From the NCBI GenBank assembly GCA_947452455.1, contig CANGBX010000003.1:248001-312000 (forward strand): a DNA stretch of 64,000 nucleotides, written 5' to 3'. Positions within the stretch are counted from its first letter, which is position 1. Each line of letters begins with the position of its first letter. The notes under the pieces are model-generated. The model ran no database searches. It was not told the origin of the DNA and was given only the letters and a program-made list of their open reading frames with translations. A program made the position numbers and the translations under genes. Of the stretch, positions 20,805 through 23,513 are shown piece after piece. This DNA is from Beijerinckiaceae bacterium. GTDB lineage: Bacteria; Pseudomonadota; Alphaproteobacteria; Rhizobiales; Beijerinckiaceae.

Positions 20805-21233
20805 TTAGGCAAAAGGTTTCAAAATCACCAGACCGACGATGAAGATCATCAATAACGTCGGGACTTCGTTCAAGACACGAAAATAGCGCGACGACTTCTG
20901 GTTCGTCCCATCGGCAAGACGGCGCCTTAGCCCACCCAGAAAACCATGAACGCCTGACATGGCCACGACCAGAGCCAATTTGGATAGAAACCAAACCTCC
21001 ATCCAATAGCCCTGCGTGGCCGCCATATGCAGGCCGGTCAGCCAAGCCACAATCATGGCAGGGGTCATGATGTAGCGGTAAAGCCGCCATTCCATCGTTT
21101 CGAAGAGGCTGGCCTGCGGCGAACCGTGTTCAACATCGGCATGATAGACATAAAGGCGGGGCAAATAGAGAAGCCCAGCCATCCACGAAATAATCGCAAG
21201 AATATGGAGCGTTTTGATCCAGAGATAGATCAT
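20805..21233 (-). CDS. hemJ: Protoporphyrinogen IX oxidase HemJ
   Basis: This 142-residue inner-membrane protein with four predicted helices belongs to the UPF0093/HemJ family, which carries out the oxygen-independent oxidation of protoporphyrinogen IX in many Alphaproteobacteria. The conserved N-terminal His lies in IKTLHILAIISWMAGLLYLPRL, with further conserved Arg and Lys residues in the following helices. The ATG at 21233 shares a base with the hemE stop (TGATG), so the two heme genes are translationally coupled. Confidence 0.92.
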   Translation of the reverse strand: MIYLWIKTLHILAIISWMAGLLYLPRLYVYHADVEHGSPQASLFETMEWRLYRYIMTPAMIVAWLTGLHMAATQGYWMEVWFLSKLALVVAMSGVHGFLGGLRRRLADGTNQKSSRYFRVLNEVPTLLMIFIVGLVILKPFA

Positions 21234-22273
21234 CAAGCGCCCCTTACCCGCGCAACCAATTGTTCCACATGAGCAATGGGTGTTTCAGGCAGAATCCCAT
21301 GGCCAAGATTGAAGATGTATGGCTTGCCATCAAAGGCTTTTTTTATCCGGTCGACGGAATCATCCAAAGCGCGTCCACCAGAAATCAAAGCAAAGGGATC
21401 TAGATTGCCTTGAACGGTCTTTTTTGACTGGATTTCGCGAGAAACCCAATTCAAGTCAGCGGATGTGTCGAGGCTCAAAGCATTGATGCCTGGATGGATG
21501 GTAAAGGCTTCCAAATGGCTTCCAACCCCTCTCGGGAAAGCAATAATGCGGGCATGGGGCACGCGAGCCTTGAGGCCTTCCACGATGGCTAGAATTGGCT
21601 TTAAACACCATCTTTCGAATTCAGTTTGCGGGAGAACCCCTGCCCATGAATCGAAAATCTGGACAGATTCCACACCAGCAGCGAATTGGCGCTCTAAATA
21701 ATCAATAGAACCGCGCACCAAAAGGTCGATAAGCCTCTGGAATAAATCTGGATTCTGATAAGCGAAAAGGCGGGCAGGCTTTTGATCGGGGGTCCCTTTA
21801 CCAGCAATCATATAGCTGGCAACGGTCCACGGAGCGCCACAAAAACCAATCAAAGAGGTTTCAGCGGGGAGTGCCCCTTTGATCAGCTCAATCGCCTCAA
21901 AAACAGGACTAAGCTTTTCAAGATCAATCTCTTGCTTAAGGGCAGCTAGACCCGCGGCATCGCTGATTGGCGGCAAACGGGGTCCTTCACCCTGCTCAAA
22001 AGACACTTTTTGCCCAAAAGCGTCCGGAACAACCAGAATGTCACTAAACAGGATGGCAGCATCAAAACCAAAGCGACGAATAGGCTGAAGGGTCGCTTCA
22101 GTGGCAAGTTTGGGCGAATAGCAAAAGTCTAGGAAAGTTGGGACCGTTGCACGGATCTCGCGATATTCGGGGAGATACCGGCCGGCCTGACGCATCATCC
22201 AGAGAGGAGGTATTTTGTTCGATTTCCCATCCAAAGCTTGGATGAAGAGCTTTTGATCTGGATGCTGAGCCAC
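21233..22273 (-). CDS. hemE: Uroporphyrinogen decarboxylase
   Basis: The 346-residue enzyme decarboxylates uroporphyrinogen III to coproporphyrinogen III in heme synthesis. The signatures PPLWMMRQAGRYLPEYR near residue 22 and GFCGAPWTVASYMIAG near 140 are diagnostic. The start is GTG 22273, with AGGGA about 11 bases upstream. It is the first gene of the leftward block; the region immediately upstream is the candidate replication origin, the arrangement known from Caulobacter (hemE beside Cori). Confidence 0.96.
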   Translation of the reverse strand: MAQHPDQKLFIQALDGKSNKIPPLWMMRQAGRYLPEYREIRATVPTFLDFCYSPKLATEATLQPIRRFGFDAAILFSDILVVPDAFGQKVSFEQGEGPRLPPISDAAGLAALKQEIDLEKLSPVFEAIELIKGALPAETSLIGFCGAPWTVASYMIAGKGTPDQKPARLFAYQNPDLFQRLIDLLVRGSIDYLERQFAAGVESVQIFDSWAGVLPQTEFERWCLKPILAIVEGLKARVPHARIIAFPRGVGSHLEAFTIHPGINALSLDTSADLNWVSREIQSKKTVQGNLDPFALISGGRALDDSVDRIKKAFDGKPYIFNLGHGILPETPIAHVEQLVARVRGA

Positions 22274-22382
22274 GTCGTGTCTTTTCCCTAAAAGAATCCC
22301 TTAAAGATCTTTCGATCTTCTTTTTCTTCTTATTAAGCCCCGGAAAGCCGTGGCGCCTAAGCATGCACAGGCCCAAATAGAC

Positions 22383-22432
22383 TTGTCCACCTGTCCACAT
22401 GGATTAACAACCCAGCTGTCAATTGTGGATGG
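22383..22432. other. DnaA-box-like cluster at the candidate origin
   Basis: Three sequences match TTATCCACA at seven of nine positions: TTGTCCACC (22383-22391), CTGTCCACA (22391-22399), and the reverse-oriented TGTGGATGG (22424-22432). The last ends two bases before the CtrA box, an arrangement that would let CtrA and DnaA compete. Confidence 0.5.
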
Positions 22433-22433
22433 C

Positions 22434-22448
22434 TTAATAAAGTCTTAA
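22434..22448. promoter_or_regulatory. CtrA box in the candidate origin
   Basis: TTAA (22434-22437), TAAAGTC (22438-22444) and TTAA (22445-22448) match the full CtrA site exactly. In Caulobacter, CtrA bound at several such sites silences the origin in swarmer cells. Here I see a single perfect site between a DnaA-like box and a GATTC methylation site. Confidence 0.7.
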
Positions 22449-22649
22449 CGATTCCAACGGATCAGGCCAAGTAAATCTGTGAGTGAAAAACACACTCTCA
22501 CCGTGACTCACAATTTTCAGCCTTCAGCTGGCTTTCTCCTCCACCATATCTTTAATGTTGAAGGAAAATCGGGGCAGTGAGAGGTATGTTTCACACCGAT
22601 GATCAAAAGTACCTCTTTCTCCCCTTCTGTCCCCAGTCATACAGAGCCT

Positions 22650-22676
22650 TGTGGACAGTCCTGACCTTGTGGATCG
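22650..22676. other. Two DnaA-box-like sequences just before ppsR
   Basis: TGTGGACAG (22650-22658) and TGTGGATCG (22668-22676) are reverse-oriented seven-of-nine matches to the DnaA box, 18 bases apart. They end four bases before the ppsR GTG, so they could serve the origin or regulate ppsR. Confidence 0.42.
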
Positions 22677-22679
22677 CTC

Positions 22680-23513
22680 GTGGGCCGTAATTATTTTCAT
22701 CTTCATCTGGTCTCCGATGCGACTGGCGAAACCTTGATTGCGGTAAGCCGTGCGGTCACAGCCCAGTTTCAAGGCGTGTCCTCGATCGAGCATGTTTATC
22801 CTTTGATCCGGACCCGAGCACAATTAGACCGGGCGATTGCAGAAATTGAATCAGCGCCCGGTATCGTTCTTTTCACGCTCGTCGACCCGGAACTCTCAGC
22901 AGCTCTGGTCAATGCCTGTCGGGAATGTGGTAGCCCTTGCCTGTCGGTCCTCGAACCAATTTTTGGCATGTTCCAATCTTATTTGGGAACAGCACAAACA
23001 TCACGGCCTGGCGCCCAGCACATGTTGAACTCGGAATATTTCCGAAGAATCGATGCGCTGAACTTCACGATGATGCATGACGATGGCCAGCTGGTCGAAA
23101 ATCTCGAAGATGCAGATGTTCTTTTGCTTGGCGTGAGTCGAACATCGAAAACACCAACGAGTATTTATCTCGCCAATCGTGGCATCAAAACCGCGAACAT
23201 TCCGCTTGTACCAGGCGTGGCACTACCGCCCTTCGTCGAAAAACTAAAAAGACCCCTGATTGTTGGGCTTATCGCATCGCCTGAGCGGATTGTTCAGATA
23301 CGTCAGAATCGATTGCTTGCGCTCAATGCGGATCAGGAAAGTCCTTATGTAGACCGCATGGCCGTTGCAGCAGAAATTGCCCACTCCAAGCGGCTTTTTG
23401 CTGAACGCGGTTGGTCCATGATTGATGTGACGCGACGCTCAATTGAAGAGACGGCAGCGGCGATCCTTGATCTCTACAAAGAACACCGCCTAAAATTTAT
23501 TGCGCAAGGGTGA
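22680..23513 (+). CDS. ppsR: Pyruvate, phosphate dikinase regulatory protein (DUF299, RP001 type)
   Basis: The 277-residue bifunctional kinase/pyrophosphorylase of the DUF299 family switches pyruvate phosphate dikinase or PEP synthase on and off. Its P-loop-like motif is [11 protein letters not shown] near residue 155; the N terminus [11 protein letters not shown] is typical. The start is GTG 22680. This is the homologue of the gene called RP001 in Rickettsia, which borders the origin. No target dikinase gene is in the window, so the partner (PpdK or PpsA) is not determined. Confidence 0.92.

Follow-up and report, generated by a model that had tools for sequence, protein, structure and literature searches.

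The studied intergenic region separates two divergent genes, hemE and a gene of the ppsR type (Table 1), and belongs to a window of 64,000 nt, the whole stretch of DNA analyzed here. It is 406 bp long if bounded by the first in-frame start codons, has a GC content of 45.8%, and corresponds to positions 270,274–270,679 of the 392-kb contig C3 in a 3.05-Mb draft genome consisting of 13 contigs. An earlier note on this DNA had described it as a non-coding gap of this length between divergent hemE and ppsR and as a candidate chromosome origin with CtrA and DnaA-like sites; the coordinates and both gene identities (TIGR01464 and NF003742) agree with our analysis, and the observation as a whole is confirmed. 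A tRNA scan detected no tRNA genes in the window, and of the 18 records returned by a plasmid search with the hemE–ppsR junction none covers 80% of the junction.

Table 1. Genes and sequence elements at the hemE–ppsR junction (positions in the window; clade, the eight closest gaps; identities are to the window sequence).
Feature	Position	Strand	Evidence and conservation
hemE, uroporphyrinogen decarboxylase	21233..22273	-	TIGR01464, 389 bits
hemE–ppsR gap, candidate chromosomal origin (oriC)	22274..22679		GC-skew minimum at gap; gene pair as described for Cori (PMC1914354)
GANTC, CcrM methylation-type site	22294..22298		Motif scan
Conserved pyrimidine-rich tract	22314..22335	+	89–94% identity in clade
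DnaA-like box TTGTCCACC	22383..22391	+	89% column identity in clade
DnaA-like box CTGTCCACA	22391..22399	+	72% column identity in clade
DnaA-like box CCATCCACA, beside CtrA site	22424..22432	-	TGTGGA core 3–4 bp from CtrA site in 8/8 clade members
Full CtrA-type site TTAA-N7-TTAA, followed by C	22434..22448	+	Exact match; half-sites 97% and 100% identical, spacer 64% (8-member clade)
GANTC, one base after CtrA site	22450..22454		Motif scan; kept in 4/8 clade members (read by eye)
GANTC, third	22505..22509		Motif scan
Conserved CTTTAATGTTGA	22550..22561	+	92% identity in clade
Conserved TCCCCAGTCATA	22630..22641	+	86% identity in clade
DnaA-like box CTGTCCACA	22650..22658	-	92% column identity in clade
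DnaA-like box CGATCCACA	22668..22676	-	60% column identity in clade, least conserved
ppsR-type kinase/pyrophosphorylase (COG1806/DUF299)	22680..23513	+	NF003742, 334 bits

The gap contains one exact site of the TTAA-N7-TTAA type, so that the perfect match claimed earlier is verified. Two exact sites are found in the window, with 0.13 expected from shuffled sequences, three in the 392-kb contig, all of them intergenic, and 12 in the 3.05-Mb genome. In the clade, comprised of the window and loci L002–L008, the mean identity across the gap is 65%, to be compared with the values for the spacer and the half-sites in Table 1, and the exact site is kept in seven of the eight gaps, the eighth (L004) having a site with one mismatch. 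Judging from the motif and its conservation, this site is likely a landing site for CtrA.

DnaA-like boxes were defined as 9-mers within two mismatches of TTATCCACA. Five such 9-mers are found in the gap, all of them at two mismatches, as had been claimed earlier, including the one beside the CtrA site; boxes with zero or one mismatch to TTATCCACA are absent from the gap. The earlier remark that no box is perfect therefore holds, but this is not unusual, as 57 of 62 gaps (the window and 61 named relatives) have no perfect box. The box closest to ppsR, CGATCCACA at 22668–22676, is one mismatch away from TGATCCACA, which we take to be the Caulobacter G-box. A density of five boxes per 406 bp is reached by 0.08% of contig windows and is not unique to the gap, being attained at four more positions of the contig (near 80, 281, 289, and 319 kb). 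As for the TGTGGA/TCCACA cores, the gap has four in approximately 400 bp, a number that no other part of the 392-kb contig reaches.

Other elements of the gap are less specific. Three GANTC sites are present, compared to 1.6 expected from shuffling; the two noted earlier, at 22294 and 22450, are correct, while the third one, at 22505, had been missed. The AT-rich tract mentioned in the same note exists, yet is modest: the lowest-GC 100 bp, starting from 22397 and including the CtrA site, have 40% GC, a value reached by 0.4% of contig windows. The TGTTGA word within the conserved CTTTAATGTTGA may be a variant DnaA-box core, and TGTTGA/TCAACA is found in 55 of 75 gaps of the order, with 16 expected. 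The conserved pyrimidine-rich tract is possibly an unwinding element or a part of the hemE leader. A consensus scan of both strands of the gap yielded no match to the IHF patterns WATCAN5WTR and WATCAAN4TTR. Extended GANTC words are enriched in gaps of the order, AGACTCT/AGAGTCT being found in 18 of 75 gaps (1.4 expected) and AGAATCT/AGATTCT in 23 of 75 (3.4 expected).

Gaps of related bacteria were scanned for TTAA-Nx-TTAA at each spacing x between 0 and 15, those other than 7 serving as controls. The named set contains 80 loci, with hemE found beside ppsR in 62 gaps (the window counted). For the order of the source, which we take to be Hyphomicrobiales, ppsR was found in 164 of 199 genomes searched, and 89 gaps from 74 genera and 38 families were examined; several genomes (up to seven) were taken from each of the few genera whose loci were returned together with the matches, and some genera were skipped, as the match was near a contig end or not among the matches listed. 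Loci L083–L107 (records of the same genus, many of them genomes of named loci) were excluded from both the named and the order counts. The class sample is comprised of 60 gaps, one per family, selected from 133 matches in 192 genomes.

The spacing of 7 is found in 20 of 62 gaps of the window and its named relatives, and any other spacing in at most two. In the order sample it is present in 29 of 74 genera and 18 of 38 families, compared to at most four genera and four families for other spacings; if one gap per genus is taken together with the window, 30 of 75 gaps have the exact site, while shuffling yields 1.4 on average and four at most. In the 80 named loci, 26 sites fall in 35.7 kb of the gaps, only one in 104.6 kb of other intergenic DNA (delineated by rough ORF calls), and none in 1.06 Mb of coding DNA. 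Outside the order, the class sample has the site in six of 55 gaps with adjacent hemE, compared to at most two for any other spacing, and in none of the five gaps without adjacent hemE. Cultured relatives with an exact site in the gap include Stappia stellulata DSM 5886 (L060) and Afifella marina DSM 2698 (L071). The exact site is absent from 45 of 74 genera of the order sample; it is likewise absent from all five Bradyrhizobium loci (L055–L059) and from all seven genomes of one family (f20). A quick single-protein tree of PpsR with 81 tips requires at least 15 changes in the state of the site, and hence its gain and loss are frequent. In the open-licence literature, which leaves out most subscription papers, we found no publication describing CtrA sites across the order at rhizobial origins, and the exact CtrA-type element in about 40% of sampled genera goes beyond the published reports found. 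Individual cases may already stand in the outputs of Ori-Finder 2022, as this tool is described as annotating CtrA motifs.

As hemE and ppsR diverge from the gap, it presumably holds their promoters, and if one gap per genus is considered, 17 of 34 sites are localized 200–275 bp upstream of ppsR, with 5.8 expected. Both observations fit a reading where the gap is the origin, and the CtrA site is just a promoter element of hemE or ppsR that is there by chance. To this reading we compare gaps that have lost one of the neighbors. The set without adjacent hemE contains 34 records (13 with the site), ten of them from L083–L107; removal of seven exact duplicates of named loci leaves 27 distinct gaps, and nine of these have the site, other spacings being found at most once. 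Seven of the nine sites are 217–236 bp away from ppsR, compared to 246 bp in the window, the exceptions being L107 (270 bp) and the distant L229 (25 bp). For the set without adjacent ppsR, 20 of 35 genomes with no ppsR match were searched (those listed), of which 18 have hemE and 17 also usable upstream DNA. The site is present in eight of these 17 hemE-upstream regions (five genera) and other spacings in at most two of 17, with the provision that ppsR may lie elsewhere in these genomes, a weak ppsR match being known in G047. Three of the eight regions have one site, three have two, and two have three.

Hence, the loss of a neighbor does not go with the loss of the site. As the site is found both without adjacent hemE and without adjacent ppsR, it seems to be an element of the origin and not of a single neighbor gene, and a hemE-only or ppsR-only promoter element is made unlikely by the same counts. 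Moreover, intergenic DNA of these loci outside the gaps has approximately 1/76 of the site density of the gaps. The site may still act on a different single promoter in each case; we consider the promoter reading as a whole to be unlikely.

Some features of these loci deserve mention in their own right. Several relatives, Bradyrhizobium (L056) among them, no longer have hemE at the origin junction. In five of seven hemE-less loci that were read (L015, L023, L010, L056, and L061) the closest ORF upstream is hemJ-like, and in the other two a rough ORF call puts another frame over the upstream stretch. Three loci from one genus without adjacent ppsR (L378, L379, and L380) have two or three exact sites upstream of hemE, more like the Caulobacter array.

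CtrA is encoded in the genome (NF045991 equivalog, 422 bits with the cut-off of 350), and so are GcrA and a CcrM-type RAMA domain. In Caulobacter, ftsK and kinase genes are CtrA targets. The second exact TTAA-N7-TTAA site of the window, at 2687–2701, is 54 bp upstream of an ftsK-type gene, which by its position is possibly a CtrA-controlled division gene. Elsewhere in the genome exact sites adjoin two Flp pilin genes and cpaB, as well as two divergent sigma-54 activators; one more is beside a partial match to the kinase PdhS (89 bits, far below the cut-off, the gene being cut by the locus end), and the remaining ones are beside a dnaN/PBP1A-type pair, an acyltransferase, and a few metabolic or unassigned genes. 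The Caulobacter CtrA targets are described as including division, pilin, and flagellar genes (PMC2877005).

TTAA is palindromic, and dyads of the form TTAAC-N5-GTTAA account for 20 of 65 sites, which makes the orientation of half-sites ambiguous and could point to a factor other than CtrA reading TTAA-N7-TTAA at the origin. On the other hand, the spacing is exactly that published for CtrA (PMC1914354, PMC7200025), CtrA is encoded, and several other genomic sites adjoin genes of CtrA-type regulons, and thus another factor is very unlikely. The earlier assignment of the site to CtrA is supported by the conservation in the clade, the other genomic sites, and the encoded CtrA.

The cumulative GC-skew minimum of contig C3, at 271,619, is 0.94 kb beyond the gap; in ten-kb bins, the skew is negative in all 27 on the left and positive in all 13 on the right. 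The dnaA gene is at C3:313,241, 42 kb from the gap, and hence the minimum is not at dnaA. On this contig, the skew check suggested in the earlier note points to the hemE–ppsR gap, and its placement of the chromosome origin there is supported by the contig-wide minimum together with the bins of opposite sign. Among five other contigs of the genome, sampled as 20 stretches of 20 kb, C1, C6, and C7 are positive in 11 of 11 samples, C2 has four positive samples followed by two negative ones, as at a terminus, and C4 yields –0.053, +0.003, and +0.0002. In a two-contig genome of the same genus (G022) nine of ten samples ahead of the ppsR gap have negative skew and all ten samples beyond it have positive skew, the opposite change occurring at 1.2–1.6 Mb, approximately half of the 5.94-Mb contig from the gap; the latter also has an exact TTAA-N7-TTAA site. 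A one-contig genome of the same order with the site (G170) has noisy skew, negative in 11 of 12 samples on one side and positive in four of eight on the other. The third-position skew, based on rough ORF calls, is at its minimum in a gene located at 261 kb, approximately 9 kb away from the gap. In the named loci the skew of 6.5-kb flanks is higher on the right than on the left in 49 of 53 cases with hemE and in 10 of 14 without it, a comparison confounded by gene strand.

As the minimum is beside the gap rather than at dnaA, and the skew flips at the same junction in G022, the hemE–ppsR gap is very probably the chromosome replication origin. An origin elsewhere, e.g., at dnaA, the gap being an ordinary divergent promoter region, finds some room, as the skew data cover six contigs of the 13-contig draft and the samples of C4 are unclear, but it is hardly credible, given that over 392 kb the skew minimum coincides with the gap and not with dnaA, 42 kb apart, that the same flip is observed in G022, and that DnaA cores are dense in the gap.

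The Caulobacter and Rickettsia origins are described at the same gene pair (PMC1914354). The C. crescentus Cori resembles the gap in the hemE/COG1806 pair, the length (404 bp there, 406 bp here), five DnaA boxes, and TTAA-N7-TTAA, and differs from it in having five CtrA sites (PMC1914354), compared to one exact site here; unlike a Cori-type origin, the gap has no IHF consensus match. The origins predicted from sequence for Rickettsia, Wolbachia, and their relatives likewise lie in gaps of approximately 400 bp that border hemE and contain DnaA boxes and CtrA-type motifs, the motif counts in Wolbachia, Ehrlichia, Anaplasma, and Rickettsia ranging from zero to seven; however, these bacteria are from another order, the counts permit a mismatch, and several gaps border COG1253 instead of ppsR (PMC1914354). 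In Hyphomonas neptunium, CtrA binds beside the origin with the motif TTAA-N7-TTAAC, as observed by ChIP-seq (PMC7200025); this bacterium too is from another order, and in our case the site is known from sequence alone. According to a 2015 review, CtrA sites were not seen in origins beyond Caulobacter species and possibly Rickettsia (PMC4468827). Brucella CtrA is reported not to have bound the origin (PMC2877005).

In the window, one base separates the nonamer 22424–22432 from the CtrA site, and the distance between its TGTGGA core and the site is 4 bp. This closeness is a property of the eight-member clade plus one more locus (L027). We rejected the side-by-side arrangement of a DnaA box and a CtrA site as a rule for the order: only three of 30 sites of the order, that of the window included, have a DnaA core within 10 bp, compared to 24% for random positions. 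In this lineage, competition between CtrA and DnaA at the origin is plausible, as the DnaA core is 3–4 bp from the CtrA site in all eight clade members. A weak DnaA box beside a CtrA site agrees with Caulobacter, where weak DnaA boxes near CtrA sites and the exclusion of DnaA are described (PMC4468827).

Taken together, we have good confidence in a reading where the gap is the origin, DnaA acts on weak boxes, and phosphorylated CtrA binds at 22434–22448, probably hindering DnaA at the adjoining box. DnaA would assemble on the set of weak TCCACA-cored boxes and would open an AT-richer stretch, perhaps around 22397–22496. Phosphorylated CtrA would bind the full site and, in this lineage, would probably hinder DnaA on the abutting box, so that initiation would wait for CtrA to be dephosphorylated or degraded. 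CtrA binding and repression here, by steric exclusion of DnaA, are what we infer from Caulobacter.

Sinorhizobium meliloti belongs to the same order as the source, and we take the hemE–ppsR junction to be its chromosomal origin. In the S. meliloti record CP090106.1 (L146, L147) this gap is 405 bp long and has two TGTGGA/TCCACA cores and five GANTC sites; unlike the gap studied here, it has no CtrA site even if one mismatch is allowed. The S. meliloti origin is reported to have no CtrA motif and not to be bound by CtrA, and, as it has no CtrA site, the restraint of replication by CtrA is described there as indirect, with the mechanism unknown (PMC4433202).

The view that Rhizobiales differ rests on two bacteria with CtrA-free origins, S. 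meliloti and Brucella. Our data suggest that many relatives of S. meliloti from the same order have a CtrA site at the origin. We lean towards direct CtrA control of the origin being widespread in Hyphomicrobiales, with the element a part of the origin no matter which neighbor is gone, and with the CtrA-free state in S. meliloti and Brucella a derived loss and not the rule. Direct control may thus be tested by mutation of a single site in a cultured relative, and the absence of the CtrA site in model rhizobia becomes an evolutionary event that needs explanation.

One more observation concerns the annotation of CP090106.1. This 3.72-Mb S. meliloti record is labelled “plasmid pSymB,” begins inside the hemE–ppsR gap, with rho, mnmE, coaE, and dnaQ in the vicinity, and appears to be the main chromosome under a wrong label.
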